The position numbers and the translations under genes are program-made. 64,000 nt of DNA from an uncultured Bacteroidales bacterium. GTDB lineage: Bacteria > Bacteroidota > Bacteroidia > Bacteroidales > CAIWKO01. Where the stretch lies: assembly GCA_903913285.1 (NCBI GenBank), contig CAIWKO010000010.1:62001-126000 (forward strand). The letters run 5' to 3'. The notes below the pieces were generated by a model. It saw only the letters and a list, made by a program, of their open reading frames with translations, searched no databases and was not told where the DNA came from. Positions 2,725 through 50,555 of this stretch are shown here, piece by piece (positions within the stretch are counted from its first letter, which is position 1; each line of letters begins with the position of its first letter).

Positions 2725-2987
2725 AAACTTAATTTGATAATCACAAGAAATTTGTAAAAAAATTTTTATTTTATTTCTACACCCCACTTTTTAGTAACCG
2801 ATAATTGTTCGTAAATTGACTAAACATTTGAAAATGCTTCGGTTAATTTCTACAATAAAAAACATACCAAATTTTAAAAAAAATAAAATTGTTTGGCAAT
2901 CTATACATTAAATTTTCACAATTTATTTTGCCATTTTTATAATAGAACAAAAGCAATTTTTAGCACATAGCATACCAATCAAAATCG

Positions 2988-2995
2988 TACCTTTG
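2988..2995 (+). promoter_or_regulatory. -7 promoter box of the helicase gene
   Basis: TACCTTTG lies only seven bases before the ATG at 3003. With the usual Bacteroidota spacing the transcript would start at or within a few bases of the start codon, so this mRNA may be leaderless or nearly so. Confidence 0.55.
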
Positions 2996-3002
2996 CAAGC
3001 CG

Positions 3003-5294
3003 ATGAAAAAAGACATCCTCACAGAACTTAACGAAACACAGCGACTCGCAGCCGAATGCATCAACGGGCCTCTCATGGTATTGGCCGGTGCCGGCTCAGG
3101 CAAAACAAGGGTACTCACCTATCGTGTGGCACACCTGCTCAATCAGGGTGTCGATCCGTTCAACATACTCTCGCTCACTTTCACCAACAAGGCAGCCCGC
3201 GAAATGAAAGACCGTATCACGCGACTGGTAGGTTCAACCGATGCCATGAACGTTTGGATGGGAACATTCCACTCGGTGTTTGCGCGCGTGTTGCGTGTCG
3301 ACGGGCATCTGCTGGGCTATCCTGCCAATTTCACCATCTACGATACCGACGATACCAAAAGTATCATGAAAGCGATACTGAAAGAACAGAACCTTGATGT
3401 GAAACAATATCCTCCTGCCTACGTGCTGCACCGCATTTCAACAGCCAAGAACAACCTGATGTCGCACGAAGACTATAACCGCAACGTGGAACTGGTTGAT
3501 TACGACAAAGCATTGGGCAAACCGCAGGTCGGACAGTTGTTCACCATCTATCAGAGCAAACTGCGCAGAGCCTTTGCCATGGATTTCGACGATCTGCTCT
3601 ATAACATGAACCTCCTGCTGCGCGATTTTCCCGCTATATTATATAAGTATCAGCAAAAGTTTAAATACATATTGGTGGATGAGTATCAGGACACCAATTA
3701 TGCCCAATATATGATCATCAAAAAGCTGGCTGCCGACAATGAGAACCTCTGCGTGGTGGGCGACGATGCGCAAAGCATCTACGGTTTTCGCGGGGCCAAC
3801 ATCCAAAACATCCTGAACTTCAAGAGCGATTATCCCGACGCACGCACGGTGAAGCTGGAACAGAACTACCGCTCCACCCAGAACATCGTTAACGCTGCCA
3901 ACAGCGTCATCCAAAAAAACAAGAAACAATACTATAAAGAGATCTGGACCGAGAACGAAGAAGGCAACAAGATCATACTGCTGAAAGCTACCTCCGACAA
4001 CGAAGAAGGCTCTATGATAGCCAACTCGGTGTTCGAAACCAAAATGAACTTTCAGCTTCCCAACTCCGATTTCGCCGTGCTTTACCGCACCAACGCCCAG
4101 TCGCGTTCTATCGAGGAAGCCATGCGCAGGCTCAACATACCGTATAAGATATACGGAGGACTGTCGTTCTACAAACGCAAAGAAATTAAAGACCTGTTAG
4201 CCTATTACCGCCTTATCATCAACAACAACGACGAAGAAGCCTTATTCCGCTGCATCAACTATCCCGCACGCGGCATCGGCGACACCACCCTCCAAAAAGT
4301 GGTGATTGCATCCAATGCCTTCAAAAAAAGTTCGTGGGAGATCATCGATCAGGCTGTTATCTACAACCTGCAGTTGAATTCGGGCATTATGCAGCGCCTC
4401 AAAGAATTCACCACCATGATCAGCAGCTACTCGGTGCAGGTTCCCATCACAAACGCCTACGAGCTGGCAAAAAAAATAGCTCTCAGCAGCGGCATTTACA
4501 AAGAACTGAAACAGGACGAATCGCCCGAAGGCGTGGGAAGGCTCGAAAATATCGACGAGCTGCTCAACGCCATCAAAGAGTTTACCGAACGCGAACACAT
4601 TTTTGCCGCTGATGGAACCCTCATAGAAAACTCCATCAAATCGCTCGACATTTTTATGCAGGACATAGCCCTGCTCACCGATGCCGACACCGAAGACAAG
4701 AACAATACCGACCGCGTGTCGCTCATGACCATACATCAGGCCAAAGGCCTTGAGTTTCCGTATGTGTTTGTGAGCGGACTCGAAGAAAACCTTTTCCCCT
4801 CCATGCAATCGCTGCACAGCAGAGACGATCTGGAAGAAGAACGCCGTTTGTTCTACGTGGCCATCACCCGTGCCATGAAACGCCTAACGCTTTCGTATGC
4901 CGAAAACCGTTACAAATACGGCGAAATGATATTCAGCGAAGTAAGCCGTTTTATCGACGAGATCGACCCGAAATATATCGATGTGCCGCGCAAAACACCG
5001 CAACAAAAACTCGACAATCCCTGGCTGCAGAAACCCGTGGTTCAACCCCTGCAGAAAAAACCCATGAACCTGAAAAAGATAAGCAAAACCAGCGACCAGC
5101 CTTCGGTTCCATTCTCTCCTTCCGACACCGACGACATACGCGTAGGCATGACCGTAGAACATCAGCGCTTTGGCCGCGGAAAAGTGATGACCGTTGAAGG
5201 CAACGGACCCAACAAAAAAACAGGGGTGCTGTTCGACAGCGTGGGCCTAAAACAACTGTTGCTGCAGTATGCCAAGCTTAAGATAGTGAATTAA
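3003..5294 (+). CDS. pcrA: ATP-dependent DNA helicase, UvrD/PcrA family (SF1)
   Basis: 3'-5' superfamily 1 helicase acting in nucleotide-excision and mismatch repair and in removing RecA or stalled replication proteins. All SF1A motifs are visible: Walker A AGAGSGKT (residues 28-35), the DEYQDT Walker B box near residue 225, GDDAQSIYGFRGA near 252, the QAKGLEFP motif near 580 and VAITRA near 620. The last 50 residues form the Tudor-like tail typical of PcrA. At 763 residues it is full length. It is strongly GC-rich at third codon positions, unlike the AT-rich island that follows. The symbol could equally be uvrD; the two are not separable by eye. Confidence 0.93.
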   Translation: MKKDILTELNETQRLAAECINGPLMVLAGAGSGKTRVLTYRVAHLLNQGVDPFNILSLTFTNKAAREMKDRITRLVGSTDAMNVWMGTFHSVFARVLRVDGHLLGYPANFTIYDTDDTKSIMKAILKEQNLDVKQYPPAYVLHRISTAKNNLMSHEDYNRNVELVDYDKALGKPQVGQLFTIYQSKLRRAFAMDFDDLLYNMNLLLRDFPAILYKYQQKFKYILVDEYQDTNYAQYMIIKKLAADNENLCVVGDDAQSIYGFRGANIQNILNFKSDYPDARTVKLEQNYRSTQNIVNAANSVIQKNKKQYYKEIWTENEEGNKIILLKATSDNEEGSMIANSVFETKMNFQLPNSDFAVLYRTNAQSRSIEEAMRRLNIPYKIYGGLSFYKRKEIKDLLAYYRLIINNNDEEALFRCINYPARGIGDTTLQKVVIASNAFKKSSWEIIDQAVIYNLQLNSGIMQRLKEFTTMISSYSVQVPITNAYELAKKIALSSGIYKELKQDESPEGVGRLENIDELLNAIKEFTEREHIFAADGTLIENSIKSLDIFMQDIALLTDADTEDKNNTDRVSLMTIHQAKGLEFPYVFVSGLEENLFPSMQSLHSRDDLEEERRLFYVAITRAMKRLTLSYAENRYKYGEMIFSEVSRFIDEIDPKYIDVPRKTPQQKLDNPWLQKPVVQPLQKKPMNLKKISKTSDQPSVPFSPSDTDDIRVGMTVEHQRFGRGKVMTVEGNGPNKKTGVLFDSVGLKQLLLQYAKLKIVN

Positions 5295-6526: not shown

Positions 6527-7753
6527 TCATAACTCATTTAAGGCAAATTCATAAAAGAATTGAGCACTTGTATAAGCTGCATAGATTTGAAAATTATCAC
6601 CTTTTTCATTGTCCCCAAAATCACAAACAGATTTAATTACAATAGGCTTTGGTTTAGGATTAGGCGCATTATATGCGCTATAGAAAATACCATATGCTTC
6701 CATTTCTAAACCAATCAATTTTCTTTGATTTACTTTATAACTTAAAAATTCATCTTTATTCTGAATTACGAATGGAACTGAAACTAATGGTCCAATTTTA
6801 ATTTTAAGTTCTGTGTTAGGTTTATTACCGTTAAACCCTCGTTTTATCTTTGAAATAATTTTGTCGTTTTCATATCCTCTAAATTTTTCTTTTAAATCAG
6901 AGTCTAGCGGTATCGGTGTAGGATTTGGAGAAAAACTTTTTTCACCAGTGGCTAACGTCGAAATTTTACCACTTGTTCCATCATATGATTGATCTGCAAT
7001 TAATATATCCCCAAATCCCAAATCATTTCCATAATAACCAGCTGCCATTCCTGTCATAACAATATATTTTGGCTTGAATGAATTTATTATTTTCATTGCT
7101 AATGTAGCAGAAGCAACCATTCCCATTTGGGGGGGAGAAGCACAAACTACTTTTAATTTTTTTTGCTCTTTTTCAAAGTAACCTATATTATATTGCGTTG
7201 CGTCATTTTCAATTGCAAATCGTTCCCAATTTGCTGAAATTTTTAATACTTGATCTAATTCGGGATTATTTAATGCAGTAATTATCGCAATATCGAAATC
7301 ATATTTAAAGTTAATGGGATTCAAAAAATCTTTTCTGACTTTAATTAGATGAAATAAAATTTCTTTTAATTTTTCTTGCCAATCAGATTCATCCTCTTTA
7401 TATTCTACTAAATGCCATAAATATTTTGTAAATTCTTCTGCATATTGTTCTCGTAAATCAGCAAAACCGGTCAAACCAACTATATGTATGGGTGGATTAA
7501 TAGTTGGATTTGTTTGTATTGTTTTTAAAAAAGTTATTCCATTTTCGGGATTTTCTATATCATCCTCATCTAATGGGAGAACCAAATCTAATATCATTAA
7601 ATCAAATGTAGTATTTCTCATAATAATTTTGGCTGCCTTTACATTCTTAGCAATTGAAACATTATGCAATGGAACATCAATCTCATTTTTAATTAGCTCT
7701 TGAATCTTATTCAGCTTATTTACATTATCTTCAACAATTATTATATTAATCAT
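6527..7753 (-). CDS. dtcC: Detocs effector DtcC: receiver domain fused to nucleoside phosphorylase-like domain
   Basis: Residues 1-125 are a response-regulator receiver with acidic pair E8-D9 and phospho-acceptor D56 in MILDLVLP. From about residue 155 to the end is a PNP/MTA-SAH nucleosidase superfamily fold. It opens FDIAIITALNN, then has a glycine-rich MTGMAAGYYGNDLGFGD block, the substrate-binding LEMEAYG motif and the catalytic-type VCDFGD segment. In the Detocs anti-phage system this architecture is the effector: once phosphorylated it cleaves adenine nucleotides (ATP) and starves the infected cell. The gene overlaps dtcB by 8 bases and is visibly AT-rich, as expected of a transferred defence module. 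Function is inferred from architecture and operon order. Confidence 0.85.
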   Translation of the reverse strand: MINIIIVEDNVNKLNKIQELIKNEIDVPLHNVSIAKNVKAAKIIMRNTTFDLMILDLVLPLDEDDIENPENGITFLKTIQTNPTINPPIHIVGLTGFADLREQYAEEFTKYLWHLVEYKEDESDWQEKLKEILFHLIKVRKDFLNPINFKYDFDIAIITALNNPELDQVLKISANWERFAIENDATQYNIGYFEKEQKKLKVVCASPPQMGMVASATLAMKIINSFKPKYIVMTGMAAGYYGNDLGFGDILIADQSYDGTSGKISTLATGEKSFSPNPTPIPLDSDLKEKFRGYENDKIISKIKRGFNGNKPNTELKIKIGPLVSVPFVIQNKDEFLSYKVNQRKLIGLEMEAYGIFYSAYNAPNPKPKPIVIKSVCDFGDNEKGDNFQIYAAYTSAQFFYEFALNEL

Positions 7754-8183
7754 TATTTTTAGTTTTTATTATTGTTCTTAATTCATTTTTCCAACTATCA
7801 GGATCATTAAAATTAAAATAAACTACACCAAGATAATTTGAAAAACTATCTTTTAATCCAGAATTAAACTCTTCATCTGTATAGTTTTTATACATCGTAA
7901 CAATTGCAACATTAATATTAATATCCCGTCTATACATTTCTTGCAATAAAAAACTACCTGCCATACTTTCAAAATCTCCCCCAGTTTCACCAGGTTCAAT
8001 ATCATAATTTGGCAAACTCATATCAAGCAGTATTAATGAATAATCCTGGTTTTTAATTATTTCACGCAGCCCAGAATTATATGACTTTCTTAATTCTAAA
8101 TGAACAGATGGAAACTCTTCTATAATAAATGAAACTATTTGATCTTTTTTATGTTCAGTATCTTCAATCAATAAAATTTTCAT
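7746..8183 (-). CDS. dtcB: Detocs DtcB: stand-alone receiver domain
   Basis: A 145-residue protein that is almost only a receiver domain, with E7-D8 in the acidic pocket and D54 in LILLDMSLPN as phospho-acceptor; it has no output domain. In Detocs such a lone receiver is thought to act as a phosphate sink that keeps accidental signalling from reaching the effector. I chose the ATG at 8183 (MKILLIED) over the longer frame beginning at 8222. The receiver beta-strand starts there, and the ATG overlaps the dtcA stop as ATGA, the classic coupling arrangement. It in turn overlaps dtcC by 8 bases. Confidence 0.85.
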   Translation of the reverse strand: MKILLIEDTEHKKDQIVSFIIEEFPSVHLELRKSYNSGLREIIKNQDYSLILLDMSLPNYDIEPGETGGDFESMAGSFLLQEMYRRDININVAIVTMYKNYTDEEFNSGLKDSFSNYLGVVYFNFNDPDSWKNELRTIIKTKNND

Positions 8184-11100
8184 GCTAATATCAAATCTAA
8201 ATTTAATTTTACAACAATACAAAATTTATTATCAACAACATTCAAAAGCAATTCATTTTTATCATCTTCAAAACTTGTTTTTACAATGTTTAATGCCTTA
8301 TAAAGCCCAGACTTCTTATCTAATTGAGATTTTTTAACATCGTCCACAATTTTTATTTTCTCCTTTAGTAATGGAATATTTTCATCTAATCTCAGATTAT
8401 TTTCAATTGTTATTTCTAAATTATCACCAATATTAATCATTTTTATAAATGCATTGGCATCTTCTTCATTTGTATAATCAAGAATGTTTTGAAAAAATAT
8501 TCTCAATAAGTAGACCAAGTGAGTAAAATATTGACCTTTAATAAGCCCCTTGAAACATATATTTTTATCCAAAACTAGATTCTTTGATGTGTAATGGTTA
8601 TGAAGTGATTCGCAACACACTTCGACTATTTTGTCTAGTTCAAAATCCGAAATTTGAGAGTCCGTTATAGTGAACCAACCCGCAATTTTCGCTAGTTTAT
8701 TTTCTATCCTTGTCTTTATTTCAGTCAAATTTGTAGATAATTCATCGGGTATAATAATATTAGATTTCAATAAAACATCTTCAAATTCATAAATTGCATC
8801 AAAAAATTTATCTCTAAATTCATTCTTAATCTTAAGTTGAATTTCTAAAAGATTTTCTTCTGTTCTTATCCATAAATCTTTAAAAATTGATATTATAAAG
8901 TCATTATAATCTAAAATATCCTTATAATTTAGTGAATAAATCAGTTGTAATTCGACCTCATTAAATTCATAATCTAACCATCCGTCAGGATTTTCTTTCT
9001 CAGTTTTAATTAATAAATATCTGGCCAATATTTCATCATAGATTAAATTATCTATTTGACTTGAAAAGGTAGAAATTAATTTATCAAATAAAATAAACTT
9101 ACCCTCATTATTAAATGATTTGATTAATAATTCCCAGAACTTGTTAGGTTTATATATTTTTGATGCCTTTTCTTTCTCTGTGATTAAATGTAGTAAGACG
9201 AATTCAGAACGAATTTCGCCTTCTAATACACCATGACGAATTCTAGTACTTAAATTTAGCTTAAGTCCATATTTACTATTCAAGAATTTATCTCTAATCT
9301 CGTAAAAAATCTCTTTAAAAATATCATATTGTGGATCTTTAGAAAATTCAAAATCCATGGTTTTTTCCTCCTGTAAAGACATATTGTACATCCTTTCAGA
9401 TCCTAAATTAATAAAGGTAATTCCTTTCTCAGAGGATAATTGAGCAATTGAAACATATCTATTAAAAGTTGATTTTAAATCTTTAAGTTCATTTAATACA
9501 ATGCTATCTTGATTCACATATATTTTACTTTCATCTATCTCTTGCAAACCCTTCTGAATTATTAATTTTTGAGATAAAAGATTTTCCTCATCAATATAAT
9601 CGCTTTTATTATCTGGGTCAACTTCCCTTAAATACTGACAAATTTTAATTCTTTCATTAAATTTGTTTTTAGTATTTGTTATAAATGGAGAATGCTTAAA
9701 AACTTCAAGATTGCAAATGTTTTTAAGAAAAAAAATCAGATTCTTATCGCAATGTTTTATCGATGAAAATAATTCAGAAGCTTTTTCATAATTAGATGCC
9801 AAAAGGTAACATTCATATGCTGTATGTATGTTATAACCTTCAGAGTTTGTTAAATAAAAAAATATTGGCAGTTCTACAGTTGGAAAAACATTCTTATATT
9901 TTGCTTTTTTTATCTCTTCCTTCACAAAATTTACATTTAATCGAAGTGTCAAATACTTATTTATAAAGTAATACTTTACAAAAACATTTATGCAATAATC
10001 GTATTCACCTAATTTTGCTTTACATAAAAAAAGATTGATTAATATTTTTTCAATCCTAAAATTAATTACTTCATTTGCCAATAAATCTTCCCAAATTTCA
10101 CTAGCTTTTGTGTAATTATCAATATTTTGATAGTTTATAGCTTGATAGTATTTTAGTCTATTTTCTTCAATATCAAATCCTTCATATGATGCAATATCAT
10201 TATTCTCAATTAAAGAAAATAGTTTTATTGTGGGTGAATTAGAAAATTCCTTTTTAAGAGAATCTAAATAATCTATAGGATTTTTATGAATCCTTGATAG
10301 CTTTGGATTCAAAAAAGAAGTATTGATTATTGACATTTTTTCAAAAGAATCATCATTATCAATTTCCTCTTTTATGATATTAGCAATTGTATAGGATAAA
10401 TTCGTAATACTACTGAGATTATATGCGATTTTCTTTAATATAATCCCTGAATCGATAGGATTTTTTTCTTTACTAAATAATTCGAATAATGCGTTAAGTA
10501 TTTGAAATTGGAATGAATCCTTAATTTCTGGATTTAATAACTTCCCTTGTTGTATCAATGATTTTACATAAATGGGATAAAGATCAACAATTAATGGGTT
10601 TATTTTTAACGTTGCTTCAATTTCATTTTGACATTTTTCGTAATTTCCAGAAGTATAATCATCGAGTATTTTAATATAATCAAAATCATACGAATGAATA
10701 TCCATCTCTTCACTTTTACTATCAATAACTGTCCGCAGAATTTTTATCTGATTATCAATCACTTTCCGATCTAAATAATAAAGTCTATTTGATATAAACT
10801 CTTTTAAATCTTTATCCTTACTTTCTAATCCTAAAATTACAAATTGAATGACTTTGATTAAAGAAATATATCTGTCAATTATTGAGTTGTAATTCTCATA
10901 AGCTAGTATTTCTGACAAATGTGAATATTCATTTTTTACGAAAGGATTTAACTTAAAAAAATAATAATCCAAATCAGCTTGGAGGTCTTTTTCCATTAAA
11001 GGAAGTAGAAATTTTACCAAATTTACTTCATATCGATTTACTGATAATTCTTTTTCAGCTTTAGTACTATAAAAATGTGCAAGATACCTGATAAATGTTT

Positions 11101-11593
11101 TTTTATTCTGAGTATTAATTTCATTTAGAAAATCAGTATTTTCTTTTAATCCCTTCCTTAGCTCTATTAATAAAAACCTATTCTCAATGCTCCATAAAGA
11201 CATTGAAATTTCACTATCAATTAAATTTAAAATTTCATCAGCTTTATCATAATTACCAGTAAAAAGAGCTATTTCATATTCTTTTTTATACTCAAGAAAT
11301 TTATTAATCTCATCTTTATATCTTCTAATACTTAATAGTATCCAATTAATTTCGTTTTCAAGTTTATTTTCGATAAAAAGTAAATTTGCTTGACCAATTT
11401 CTCTTATGTTTTTTGGCAAAGCTTCTCCATAAATCCATTTCTGATAGACATTATTTGATGACAAATCATCAGCTATTATACACTCTAAAAAGTATTCATA
11501 AGTATATTTTAAATTCGAAAAAGATAATCTGGGATTTTTATCTTTTTCAGACATATTTATTCGAAATTGTCTTGCAATAATTTTTTCAAACAT
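8180..11593 (-). CDS. dtcA: Detocs DtcA: large TPR-type sensor with degenerate histidine-kinase C-terminus
   Basis: A 1137-residue soluble protein with no membrane segment. Roughly residues 20-700 are alpha-helical repeats of TPR type, the presumed phage-sensing part. The C-terminal 400 residues look like a diverged GHKL kinase. They include a conserved-looking RIRHG segment with His787, an N-box-like FFQNILDYT near 1034 and a SGLYKAL lid-like segment near 1096; a clean DxGxG box is not visible. Known Detocs sensors phosphorylate the receivers of DtcB and DtcC. It is the first gene of the operon; starts at 11593 or 11554 are both possible. Very AT-rich codon use sets it apart from flanking housekeeping genes. 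Confidence 0.8.
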   Translation of the reverse strand: MFEKIIARQFRINMSEKDKNPRLSFSNLKYTYEYFLECIIADDLSSNNVYQKWIYGEALPKNIREIGQANLLFIENKLENEINWILLSIRRYKDEINKFLEYKKEYEIALFTGNYDKADEILNLIDSEISMSLWSIENRFLLIELRKGLKENTDFLNEINTQNKKTFIRYLAHFYSTKAEKELSVNRYEVNLVKFLLPLMEKDLQADLDYYFFKLNPFVKNEYSHLSEILAYENYNSIIDRYISLIKVIQFVILGLESKDKDLKEFISNRLYYLDRKVIDNQIKILRTVIDSKSEEMDIHSYDFDYIKILDDYTSGNYEKCQNEIEATLKINPLIVDLYPIYVKSLIQQGKLLNPEIKDSFQFQILNALFELFSKEKNPIDSGIILKKIAYNLSSITNLSYTIANIIKEEIDNDDSFEKMSIINTSFLNPKLSRIHKNPIDYLDSLKKEFSNSPTIKLFSLIENNDIASYEGFDIEENRLKYYQAINYQNIDNYTKASEIWEDLLANEVINFRIEKILINLFLCKAKLGEYDYCINVFVKYYFINKYLTLRLNVNFVKEEIKKAKYKNVFPTVELPIFFYLTNSEGYNIHTAYECYLLASNYEKASELFSSIKHCDKNLIFFLKNICNLEVFKHSPFITNTKNKFNERIKICQYLREVDPDNKSDYIDEENLLSQKLIIQKGLQEIDESKIYVNQDSIVLNELKDLKSTFNRYVSIAQLSSEKGITFINLGSERMYNMSLQEEKTMDFEFSKDPQYDIFKEIFYEIRDKFLNSKYGLKLNLSTRIRHGVLEGEIRSEFVLLHLITEKEKASKIYKPNKFWELLIKSFNNEGKFILFDKLISTFSSQIDNLIYDEILARYLLIKTEKENPDGWLDYEFNEVELQLIYSLNYKDILDYNDFIISIFKDLWIRTEENLLEIQLKIKNEFRDKFFDAIYEFEDVLLKSNIIIPDELSTNLTEIKTRIENKLAKIAGWFTITDSQISDFELDKIVEVCCESLHNHYTSKNLVLDKNICFKGLIKGQYFTHLVYLLRIFFQNILDYTNEEDANAFIKMINIGDNLEITIENNLRLDENIPLLKEKIKIVDDVKKSQLDKKSGLYKALNIVKTSFEDDKNELLLNVVDNKFCIVVKLNLDLILA

Positions 11594-12100
11594 AAAAAAT
11601 AAAATTTCATAATAATATCAAATATAAGATACTCCGTTTAAAATTGAGATTTTCAAATCAGTATTTATTATTCTTATAGCCTACAGTCAGAGTTTGGCCT
11701 ATTTCCAAACTCACCCCAAATATATACAATTGTTTGTAAGATGATAAATTTTCTTAAAAAAAATCAAAAAAAATTTATACTTCCATAAAATATTGCAATC
11801 TGCCCTGCGTTATTATACTAAATAAAACACACATCACATTCACTAAACGAACCAAAAACATGAAATAAATTTTACCCCGAAAAATTTAAGTTTTTAAACG
11901 AAAAACTTTTTTTCGAAAAGGAGTAAAAAATATTTTGTGTATCATGCCGGTTCGGGTTTCACATACAAGGTTTTTCATCCACGCACTGCCGAAACAAAGC
12001 GAAAGACAGCCCAACAGAAGCAATTTTACTGCCATCTTCATCATAACCACCTGTAATACTACTATTTCAGAAGGTTCTGTATTTTTTTTACGTCTGACTT
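11594..12100. other. AT-rich spacer upstream of dtcA with no convincing gene
   Basis: Mostly A/T-rich DNA, presumably holding the dtcA promoter. A minus-strand frame at 11886-12044 begins with a hydrophobic MAVKLLLLGCLSL stretch that resembles a signal peptide, but it runs only about 52 residues with nothing recognisable after it. It may be a gene relic. Confidence 0.4.
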
Positions 12101-12415
12101 CACCGATTGTAACAAGCATTACACCAATGTCAACTGACATTCGTCCGATGCTTGTTAGCATTACACCAATGTCTGCTGACATTCAACCAATGCTTGTTAG
12201 CATTCCACCAATGTCTGCTGACATTCACCCAATGCTTGTTAGCATTCCACCAATGTCTGCTGACATTCAACCGATGCTTGTTAGCATTCTACCAATGTCT
12301 GCTGACATTCACCCGATGCTTGTTAGCATTCCACCAATGTCTGCTGACATTCAACCGATGCTTGTTAACATTCATCCAATGCTTGTTAGCACTCCTGCAA
12401 TGTCAGTTGACATTA
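12101..12415. repeat. Array 1: fifteen 21-nt tandem hairpin units
   Basis: Fifteen contiguous 21-base units. Apart from the first, they alternate between two versions for most of the array. One version folds as AATGTC-TGCT-GACATT and the other as AATGCT-TGTT-AGCATT. Each is a 6-bp stem with a 4-base loop, separated from the next by 5 bases. The two stem sequences differ by paired changes (TC/GA versus CT/AG) that preserve base pairing. The array ends about 140 bases before the small gene at 12557. Units 13-15 break the strict alternation. Confidence 0.9.
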
Positions 12416-12556
12416 TGCCAGTCATTGACTATTTTACCGCTTTTTCTACTTTTCATACTACTTTGTTATTGATAATGAACTTTTTGCTATCTGGCACTTT
12501 CAATGAACGTTCTTTGCAAAAAAAAATAATTATTAACCAATTAAAAAAATTGTACA

Positions 12557-13174
12557 ATGAAAACTAAAAGAGTTATCATCAATTTCATGCGCCTGGCGAT
12601 AGCCGCGCTGATTGTGTTCGGTCGTTCGGTAGTTGCCAAAATGACCGGAAATGCTAATTTTATTAATCCAAATCCCAAGTTGGTCGACGTTACAGCGGCC
12701 ATCGACGATATGGAAGCCAAAGCTGCTTTGGCTAAAGATGGCAGCAAAACAGACAAATCGAATGCGAAAGTGGCCAAGAAAAAAGCAGTTGACATTTTGC
12801 GTCAACTGGCCTGGTGGGTTGAAGGCGTTGCTAATGGAGACGAGAACATACTCACTAGCAGTGGTTTTATGTTATCCAAAGATCCTGAGCCTTCGCAAAG
12901 AGATGATTTTTTTATCTTCGGTGGCACCAACCCCGGCGATTTGCTGATAGGCTGCATGGCTTATCCGAAAGCAGGGGCTTATATCTGGTATCATAGCCTT
13001 GACGATAAACCACCTGTGCACGAGAGCGACTGGATATTTGCCGGTGCATCCACTCAACGCAGGACGTATCTGAAGGGTTATACCTCCGGAACAAAGATAT
13101 GGTTCCGGGTAAGACCGCTAACCAAAGACGGTCTGGAACCTGAAAAAGTTCCAATCTTGTTCACCATAAAATGA
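12557..13174 (+). CDS. Small repeat-associated protein, copy 1 (paralogue of 49577-50188)
   Basis: A 205-residue protein of unknown function. The first 50 residues have a hydrophobic helix and the conserved VAKMTGNxxFxxPxP segment. A helical block follows to about residue 100, then a compact beta-rich domain ending with an STQxxxxxxxxxSGxKxWxR pattern that resembles a fibronectin type III-like fold. The product at 49577-50188 is clearly homologous over the full length (MTGN, DGS, STQ, SG-K-W-R shared in order). Both genes lie directly 3' of a 21-nt repeat array. A shared A/T-rich stretch (ATAATTATTAA, then a run of A) precedes both start codons. A bidirectional terminator follows at 13206. 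Confidence 0.8.
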   Translation: MKTKRVIINFMRLAIAALIVFGRSVVAKMTGNANFINPNPKLVDVTAAIDDMEAKAALAKDGSKTDKSNAKVAKKKAVDILRQLAWWVEGVANGDENILTSSGFMLSKDPEPSQRDDFFIFGGTNPGDLLIGCMAYPKAGAYIWYHSLDDKPPVHESDWIFAGASTQRRTYLKGYTSGTKIWFRVRPLTKDGLEPEKVPILFTIK

Positions 13175-34656: not shown

Positions 34657-34992
34657 GTGTAATCTGTGCACACTGGCGTGCAACTTGTGCACACTGTCAT
34701 GCAACTTGTGCACACTGTCATGCAACTTGAGCACACTCGCATGCAACTTGTGCACACTCACATGCAACTTGCGCACACTCACGTGCAACTTGCGCACACT
34801 CGCATGCAGTTTATTCACAATTACATGCAGTCTCAACACAGTCGCATGCCGGTTGAACACAATTGCGTGCAACTTGTGCACAATAGCATTCAGGCTAAAC
34901 ACAATGCCTAGCAACCCATATACAATTTCTTGAAAGTTATATACAATTCCATGCAATCCGCATACAATTGCATGCAATCTTTCAACAATACC
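34657..34992. repeat. Array 2: sixteen 21-nt tandem units
   Basis: Sixteen contiguous 21-base units run from 34657 to 34992. The first eleven are similar, with a core of TGCAACTTGTGCACAC that can fold as TGCA-ACTTG-TGCA. The last five decay progressively, although the ATGCAATCCGCAT unit keeps a 4-bp stem. Because 21 is a multiple of three, several frames stay open as heptad repeats. Unlike the other two arrays there is no small MTGN-family gene beside it; it lies between an orphan gene fragment and a PLP lyase gene. Confidence 0.9.
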
Positions 34993-49576: not shown

Positions 49577-50188
49577 TTATCCTACAATAATATCAAGAGC
49601 TTTGCTCCAGGGTGTCATGCCTTCGGGCAAAACACCGCAATAGCGTATCCATACTTTTTTGCCCGAATCGAGGTCGCTTATGGTCATTTTTGTTTGAGTT
49701 GAAACTCCTGCCAAAACCCAAACCGAAGCATCGGTTGGCGCTGTTTCACTAATAATAAACTGCCAAACATACGAATGAGAACGTTTTATGCGGGCACAAC
49801 CACATTCAATTTCGCCCGGAAAACCTCCGCGATCGACCCAAAAATCGGCTTTATTTCCGCGAATGAAATCCCTCGATACTTCAAACCCACTTCGGTCGAT
49901 TATAAGGATATTTCCCTGCGCAATTTTATCCACATATAAACCCAAACTGCGCAACATTAATTCAAGTTCTTTGCGTTTGGCTATCATAGCATCGTGAGCC
50001 GAATGCGAGCCATCGGCTGCCAAAATCACCAATTTTTCCAAAGCGTCGATCAGGGTTGTTATATCGGCCAGAGCCGGATCGGGTGTTGGAAAATCGGGGT
50101 TACCAGTCATTTTAGTAACAATATTGCGTGCTTTAATAATTAAGGCTGCAACATAATAAGCGGAAAAATCGATAAGTGGCTTTTTCAT
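49577..50188 (-). CDS. Small repeat-associated protein, copy 2 (paralogue of 12557-13174)
   Basis: A 203-residue protein homologous over its full length to the 12557-13174 product. It has the same N-terminal helix, the VTKMTGNPDFPTPDP segment (VAKMTGN in copy 1), a DGS in the middle, and a beta-rich C-terminal domain with AGVSTQ and SGKKVWIRY. Sequence divergence is considerable, so it is an old family, yet its position directly downstream of a 21-nt repeat array is conserved. The leader before the ATG resembles that of copy 1 (ATAATTATTAAT, then an A run). Function unknown. Confidence 0.8.
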   Translation of the reverse strand: MKKPLIDFSAYYVAALIIKARNIVTKMTGNPDFPTPDPALADITTLIDALEKLVILAADGSHSAHDAMIAKRKELELMLRSLGLYVDKIAQGNILIIDRSGFEVSRDFIRGNKADFWVDRGGFPGEIECGCARIKRSHSYVWQFIISETAPTDASVWVLAGVSTQTKMTISDLDSGKKVWIRYCGVLPEGMTPWSKALDIIVG

Positions 50189-50250: not shown

Positions 50251-50439
50251 GTGAATTAAAAAGGTTCCTTGGTGAATCATAAAGGTTCCTTGGTGAATCA
50301 AAAAGTTTCCTTGGTGAATCATAAAGGTTCCTTGATGAATCATAAAGGGTTCTTGGTGAATCAAAAAGGGTTCTTGGTGAATTAAAAAGGTTCCTTGGTG
50401 AATTAAAAAGGATTCTTTTTGATTTAAAAAGCTTTCTGA
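50251..50439. repeat. Array 3: nine 21-nt tandem units
   Basis: Nine contiguous 21-base units built on GTGAATCATAAAGGTTCC, with the ninth decayed. On the plus strand GGTTC can pair with GAATC (one G-U) across the unit, but the stem is weaker than in array 1. The array lies 62 bases upstream (5') of the minus-strand gene at 49577-50188, and a TC microsatellite lies just beyond it. Confidence 0.9.

Positions 50440-50501: not shown

Positions 50502-50555
<54 letters not shown>

Follow-up and report, generated by a model that had tools for sequence, protein, structure and literature searches.

Tandem direct repeats have been described in several bacterial settings. In the iterons at the plasmid origins of R6K, RK2, F and P1, the well-studied direct repeats measure 17 to 22 bp, helical position matters for cooperative binding, and two to seven units are named in the relevant passages of the source (PMC4980987). 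Type III toxin-antitoxin systems place tandem repeats before a small gene and a promoter ahead of the repeats, as laid out for ToxIN in passages of PMC8860590. Freshwater Planctomycetota carry abundant and variable intergenic tandem repeats, for which the passages describing them give no fixed period and no linked gene (PMC9426551). Finally, TAACTGA heptamers recur in Beggiatoaceae and some Bacteroidetes, in intergenic sequence upstream of start codons according to the portion of PMC4679880 that treats them.

The locus described here, an array of 21-bp units in front of a small gene, lies in a 64-kb stretch of DNA from an uncultured Bacteroidales bacterium, the whole of which is called the window below. 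Like the iterons of the cited passages, arrays of this type are tandem direct repeats, here of 20 to 22 bp. Unlike iterons, they adjoin an FN3-type gene, with no winged-helix Rep initiator found and no Rep-like match for the family protein in domain and structure searches; they lie in chromosomal contigs, with many copies per genome, their unit sequence differs between loci, and they usually count more units than the two to seven named in that text. Since many family copies stand in long contigs of one genome, location at a replication origin is unlikely. As in ToxIN and its relatives, tandem repeats precede a small gene, whereas the units are more numerous than the 3 to 5.6 given for those systems in the passages at hand, and terminator-like hairpins between array and gene are not clearly enriched (26 of 68 loci, against 20.7 expected by shuffling). 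These hairpins being required, membership in the type III class was rejected. The type III repeat unit is, moreover, longer than the 21-bp unit here, and no toxin-like fold was found, the protein being FN3-like plus helices without a ToxN-like endoribonuclease. The Planctomycetota repeats are likewise abundant; the TAACTGA repeats are one fixed 7-bp sequence, placed by the passages on them mostly a few nucleotides from start codons, compared with 21 bp and locus-specific letters here. No description of such arrays was found in the open text of PubMed Central, and they look like an undescribed kind of gene-control array.

The window locus and its gene family

The original prediction, made from the letters of the window, had placed 21-nt hairpins with two alternating stem versions directly before the small gene, and such an array is indeed there (A1, Table 1). 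Its dyads, AATGTC-N4-GACATT and AATGCT-N4-AGCATT, alternate and so give the higher-order unit; of the inverted repeats (6 bp, 4-nt loop, every 21 bp), nine pair perfectly, and 13 in register form five or all six of their pairs. Four units of the second type start with GATGCT, which makes a G.T pair, the unit at 12357 has four pairs only, the units at both edges are degenerate, and two additional 5-pair inverted repeats are out of register. When the 42 columns were permuted with the repetition kept (2,000 trials), the mean was 0.09 perfect hairpins and the maximum 6, so that none of the trials reached the 8 seen in the tested segment; the A1 dyad is significant by column permutation (p 0.01). 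The density is 28 per kb in A1, compared with 0.45 per kb in the window outside its three arrays. The last good unit is ~150 bp from the gene start. An Rfam search gave no match on A1, and a sequence search for A1 itself returned this copy only; that it is a one-off array was rejected, as family loci show the array type recurring. Adjoining the locus, three genes on the minus strand (6527-11593) match parts A, B and C of the PADLOC candidate defence system PDC-M60 at E 1e-74, 3e-28 and 1e-108.

Table 1. Features of the arrays and family genes in the window (window coordinates).
Feature	Position	Strand	Description
Array A1	12094..12435	+	about 16 units of 21 bp, one register; 42-bp higher-order unit
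ORF through A1	11935..12567	+	candidate translated leader; overlaps start codon of the 12557 gene
Spacer, A1 to start codon	12436..12556	+	scan reports no terminator-like hairpin
205-aa gene	12557..13174	+	helical N-terminal domain, FN3-like C-terminal domain
Array A2	34665..34905 (also delimited as 34665-34980)		21-bp units, GTGCAC and GCATGC palindromes, no family gene adjoining
203-aa paralog of the 12557 gene	49577..50188	-	directly behind A3
Array A3	50251..50437	-	21-bp units directly upstream of the paralog; sense unit TTCACCAAGGAACCTTTTTAA

Two further 21-bp arrays, A2 and A3, had gone unmentioned in the original prediction. A2 is flanked by what we take to be a DnaJ-like gene and a gene resembling cystathionine synthase. 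The A3 dyad is non-significant (p 0.31). Upstream of A3 lies a TC microsatellite of about 24 copies (50505-50553), and the minus strand carries two matches to the Rfam DUF805 RNA (RF03081; 48731-48797 and 49425-49524), the second just downstream of the paralog gene.

The window gene had no match in Pfam, NCBIfam or PHROGs, its protein none in PADLOC, and its sequence matched FN3 structures only weakly (E 0.006). The model of another member (L034; mean pLDDT 91.7) is helical in its N-terminal part and has FN3 structures as matches to its C-terminal domain; on the Pfam FN3 profile (PF00041, cut-off 25), member L061 scores 32.6 and member L091 18.6, which is below the cut-off. The N-terminal domain of the window protein itself, modelled at pLDDT 87.6, had no structural match at E<=0.001. 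A search of the viral fold library gave FN3 matches only among the 50 listed, partly tail proteins. As no known DNA-binding fold was recognised by structure search, such a fold was rejected for the encoded protein. The N-terminal domain of the window protein carries the motif MTGNxxF, whose N is invariant in a family alignment of 22 rows. The family has 15 matches in the window's own genome, occurs in 7 of the 59 genomes searched (that genome included), and relatives of the window gene are found in Bacteroidota, Verrucomicrobia and others. Breznakibacter xylanolyticus DSM 6779 and Lacibacter cauensis CGMCC 1.7271 are among the type strains with such a locus.

Family genes were collected from the own genome, its relatives, the phylum and 50 named loci. 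Out of 95, six were dropped as fragments or duplicates (L044, L045, L039, L062, L015, L118) and one for too short an upstream sequence (L037), leaving 88 loci, which include near relatives (e.g., L092/L134, L126/L127, L119/L123/L124 and three loci of one MAG). With the array criterion fixed as a period of 20 to 22 bp within 1 kb upstream, 69 of the 88 have an upstream array, two of these (L121, L123) being weak positives at 750 to 930 bp that may not be module arrays. Applied to other regions, the same criterion picked up arrays in 4 of 79 downstream, in 4 of 61 lying far upstream (three of these are part of the same module or of a neighbouring one) and in 2 of 61 lying far downstream. Because it was the window and its relatives that first revealed the link, the loci of named organisms are an independent test: 37 of 49 have an array, compared with 3 of 89 other genes from that DNA (Fisher 1e-19), and the remaining loci give 32 of 39. 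The prospect, raised with the original prediction, that array and gene would prove unlinked elsewhere is itself refuted by this recurrence.

By the same criterion the array is absent at 19 loci. In two of these (L040, L056) an ORF separates the gene from an array, one L041 gene comes second in a tandem pair, the arrays of L127 and of L052, the closest homolog found (64%), look degenerate by eye, and L043 and L135, whose arrays are of the 41-bp type, are scored as misses because the detector is restricted to 20 to 22 bp. At the other 12, none was seen, or two- to three-copy repeats or other periods.

Period and turnover of the array units

The original remark that the period amounts to about two helical turns holds beyond A1, the period being close to 21 wherever arrays were found: 21 bp in 57 of the 69 loci, 20 bp in 8 and 22 bp in 4. 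The mean upstream autocorrelation of the 88 loci, whose lag scan, unlike the array detector, is not confined to 20 to 22 bp, is 0.117 at lag 21, 0.118 at 42 and 0.099 at 63, followed by 0.095 (lag 84), 0.083 (105) and 0.081 (126). Neighbouring lags give 0.032 (20), 0.016 (41) and 0.013 (22), and values are near zero at lags 15 to 19 and 23 to 28; no 10- to 11-bp periodicity appears in the autocorrelation of these loci. The gene, downstream and far regions have a weak 3-base coding rhythm with lag 21 among the higher values (0.020 to 0.031), and the far-upstream regions a faint series at multiples of 21.

The letters of the units turn over. Six pairs with proteins 85 to 95% identical and an array detected in both could be compared. 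In four of them the units share at most 0.05 of their 10-mers, one of these (L100/L103) having its detected arrays at different distances, and the others share 0.19 (L092/L134) and 0.46 (L053/L054). In L132, a relative of the Sphingobacterium loci L126, L127 and L130, another core, TTGTACAA, stands at the same pitch. Between L052 and L053, the leader aligns at 84% and the gene with its 3' flank at 81%, but not the array, as might be expected if array and gene moved together as a mobile or recombining module with the array as recombination substrate. Such movement would also suit L053 and L054, which share about 1.8 kb at 90% between unalignable flanks, with the same module at 80 to 84% in L052, as well as two near-identical array copies in one genome (G453), the tandem gene copies of L041, and three contigs (C8, C37, C67) that terminate inside near-identical gene copies. 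However, neither terminal repeats nor target duplications could be established, no recombinase gene is common to the flanks, and searches returned no match for the window protein in plasmids, for the L091 protein in phages or for the A2 patterns in viral contigs, which leaves a mobile module quite unlikely.

Several observations concern the same neighbourhoods. Recombinase-like ORFs, as we take them to be, stand near the module in L131 (292-2152, apparently split), L093 and L097. No conserved partner gene was found across the flanks, where families recur mainly within one genus: the two largest flanking-gene clusters are from Sphingobacterium only, and a cluster of four loci is from Verrucomicrobia MAGs. 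In the Sphingobacterium locus L126 (1890-4534), a small gene with a relative in 5 loci lies upstream of the array and a DUF5675 gene (7 loci) downstream, and the neighbourhood includes one more small gene. Between L052 and L053/L054, the last 92 residues are 95 to 97% identical and the first 28 residues 61 to 64%, a pattern that, judged from these protein sequences, is domain-wise homogenisation.

A search for further arrays in the same genome had been proposed with the original prediction. The own genome (G000) has 11 noncoding arrays whose period is 21 bp or a multiple of it, the window's three included, in 391 kb of stretches not partly chosen for the box or AATG pattern described below. 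Elsewhere the counts are 19 for G001 (238 kb), 1 for G006 (149 kb), 2, both short, for G002 (213 kb), which has no family gene, and none for G026 (116 kb) or for a 399-kb sample of G005, yet at least three of four family loci of G005 carry one. Several arrays of G000 and G001 precede small genes outside the FN3-type family: a cluster of 319 to 405 aa with CarboxypepD_reg in three tested members, another family, of 319 aa, whose arrays in the two genomes are of 41 bp, a family of 243 to 253 aa (no significant Pfam match), and one gene of 300 aa whose product has a prealbumin-like domain. On our reading of their sequences, the N-terminal parts of these proteins would be helical. Among the 44 arrays listed from G000, G001 and G006, 7 lie between convergent genes and hence cannot be 5' operators. 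Moreover, a genus-specific box, TACCGTTAACT, stands in two or three copies 21 bp apart upstream of several modules and unrelated genes (e.g., L052 1997-2047), and also upstream of genes that seem ExbB/TonB-like. With up to 2 mismatches it has 26 matches in G000, 22 perfect ones being found there, 20 in G001 and 14 in G003, against 8, 14 and 3 for the reversed controls.

The many arrays of G000 and G001 away from the family and the turnover of unit sequences are what an old tandem repeat would leave if it were inherited with the gene, maintained by slippage and functionless, and slippage would preserve an existing period without selection. On the other hand, drift by single-base indels should spread the period of such a neutral satellite, and 21 +- 1 is held across phyla; the G005 sample is arrayless while its family loci mostly have arrays; and half-sites are better conserved than spacers, as detailed below. 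We consider a neutral origin of the arrays unlikely.

Dyad symmetry, probable transcription and reading frames

The self-complementarity seen at A1 is enriched in the arrays. Dyads beyond column permutation occur in 28 of the 69 at p<=0.05 (about 3.5 expected; combined p 6e-15), and the other 41 have no significant dyad. The fold z is -1.42 for real arrays and -0.08 for 138 synthetic control arrays, with better-than-permuted folding at P<=0.05 in 21 of 69 and 4 of 138, respectively. In the 28 dyad arrays, columns at mirrored positions about the dyad centre are similarly conserved (r 0.37; 24 arrays positive), compared with r 0.02 at other centres. In 41 of the 69, the spread of mismatches over columns is uneven at p<=0.01, which unit duplication can also cause. 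In the window's genome, 87 matches were found for AATG-N8-CATT recurring every 21 bp, and 12 for its reversed control; among the matches listed are A1 and several arrays that otherwise differ, those of family genes L049 and L043 and those of other genes, L265 and L266, and L267 fits with mismatches only and pairs poorly. The fifth pair of these dyads varies between T-A, C-G and A-T.

In the original prediction, the alternating stems were taken as direct evidence that the fold is maintained, a conclusion that does not carry over to the family. The symmetric half-sites of a dimer would also change in pairs, so the alternation is not proof of a fold, and fewer than half of the arrays pass the dyad test. 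If a sense RNA hairpin were important, one-sided changes should favour G.T over A.C on the gene-sense strand; the stem mismatches of the 28 arrays are strand-neutral (G.T 68, A.C 65), and sense and antisense fold equally, the sense strand being more stable in 32 of 69. The covariation check was possible in Sphingobacterium, where three orthologs (L126, L127, L130) have 53 units of TACTG-N4-CAGTA-N7, L126 and L127 being close relatives. Conservation is 70 to 96% in the ten half-site columns, figures raised because units were picked by register and a minimum of 5 matches in 10, and it reaches at most about 60% in any spacer column. Among 265 pair cells, 194 are canonical, 63 have one-sided changes (18 G.T, 11 A.C, 34 other) and 8 have double changes, where 5.7 are expected by independence; 2 of the 8 still pair, and compensatory changes between the three orthologs did not point to selection for pairing. 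Half-site letters are thus kept there, and paired stem changes as proof of an RNA fold were rejected. Altogether, strand neutrality and the persistence of half-sites favour a DNA operator array over an RNA fold.

Many arrays are probably transcribed within the leader nonetheless. The -7 element TAnnTTTG, as a consensus match only, occurs 23 times up to 300 nt upstream of the array, against 8.8 expected (69 loci, all phyla), and 10 times between array and gene, against 4.8. Since these elements lie mostly upstream of the array, many arrays are likely to be part of the leader transcript. Their hairpins might then act in the RNA, either as a regulator or as a type III-like repeat RNA that restrains the protein. 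The stronger folding of arrays relative to column-permuted ones, the order of promoter, repeats and gene as in the ToxIN passages (PMC8860590), and L047, which retains its 21-bp array with the gene cut to its last 27 codons (2947-3275), agree with such an RNA leader. The balance of G.T and A.C, the equal folding of both strands, the terminator-like hairpins close to expectation and the Rfam and PADLOC searches, negative for the array and the protein, respectively, speak against it, and Sphingobacterium conserves half-site sequence and not pairing, though G.T slightly exceeds A.C there. An RNA leader seems an improbable account.

The array could also form the end of a short upstream ORF that encodes heptapeptide repeats, and translation of this ORF would tune the downstream gene. 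The sense strand has a stop-free frame in 40 of the 57 21-bp arrays (null 22.8 +- 3.1, maximum 32 in 300 permutations) and the antisense strand in 25 of 57 (null 22.0 +- 3.0; paired comparison p 0.011), the window frame overlaps the gene start, and in L034/L035 the pN/pS of the non-array leader, 0.45, is near the gene's 0.39. In contrast, differences between units are evenly spread over codon positions (0.325, 0.308 and 0.289), and 187 of 897 single changes between units are synonymous, fewer than in the other two frames. The leader's pN/pS also exceeds the gene's in L053/L054 (0.8 against 0.26) and L057/L059 (0.55, from three changes, against 0.21), stops close all sense frames in 10 of the 12 arrays with a 20- or 22-bp period, and periods of 18 and 24, as good for coding, are without signal. 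We hold a translated leader to be very unlikely, and the 20-, 22- and 41-bp arrays together with the missing codon-position signal led us to reject heptad protein repeats as a general explanation. The sense-strand excess of stop-free frames is an unexplained secondary feature outside the operator model.

A proposed operator model and its implications

Of the three options offered with the original prediction, an RNA leader, a protein-binding DNA array and a recombination substrate, the protein-binding array is thus favoured, and the RNA fold is not. We tentatively propose, as quite possible though short of probable, that arrays of the A1 type are phased, cis-acting DNA operator arrays for a putative dimeric DNA-binding protein, with half-sites particular to each locus. 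Each 21-bp unit would be an inverted pair of half-sites for one dimer, and the spacing of about two helical turns would turn all sites to the same side of the helix, allowing dimers to bind side by side, perhaps cooperatively, and thereby to control the gene behind the array. The half-site would drift locus by locus while the spacing is held, and the candidate binder may be the encoded protein itself or a separate regulator. Conserved dyad half-sites in helical phase, the mark of an operator, are found as an enrichment and not in every array. Our confidence is held back by the 41 of 69 arrays without significant dyad, by the many arrays that seem to be transcribed, which is unusual for an operator, and by the putative nature of the binder; moreover, so many different half-sites would need many specificities. 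Also against the model stand the 19 of 88 loci at which the criterion detects no array, the arrays between convergent genes and the negative outcome of the structure searches for a DNA-binding fold in the protein.

Beyond the single locus, it is conceivable, although we regard it as doubtful, that these loci form a widespread new class, in which small genes carry private, fast-changing dyad arrays that co-evolve with their binder at a 21-bp pitch held across phyla. If so, several such genes would combine a helical part with a beta-sandwich (FN3, CarboxypepD_reg or prealbumin-like), and the locus-by-locus co-evolution of array and binder would amount to self-recognition or to a mutually insulated control code, with the variable N-terminal part of the gene product possibly acting as the reader. 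A DNA element with free sequence and a fixed two-turn pitch, tied to one gene family in several phyla, would let phased binding be studied as a natural experiment, and it would also bear on how protein-DNA specificities diverge. A control region that can be recognised by its period alone gives a first handle on a large, uncharacterised group of paralogous proteins.
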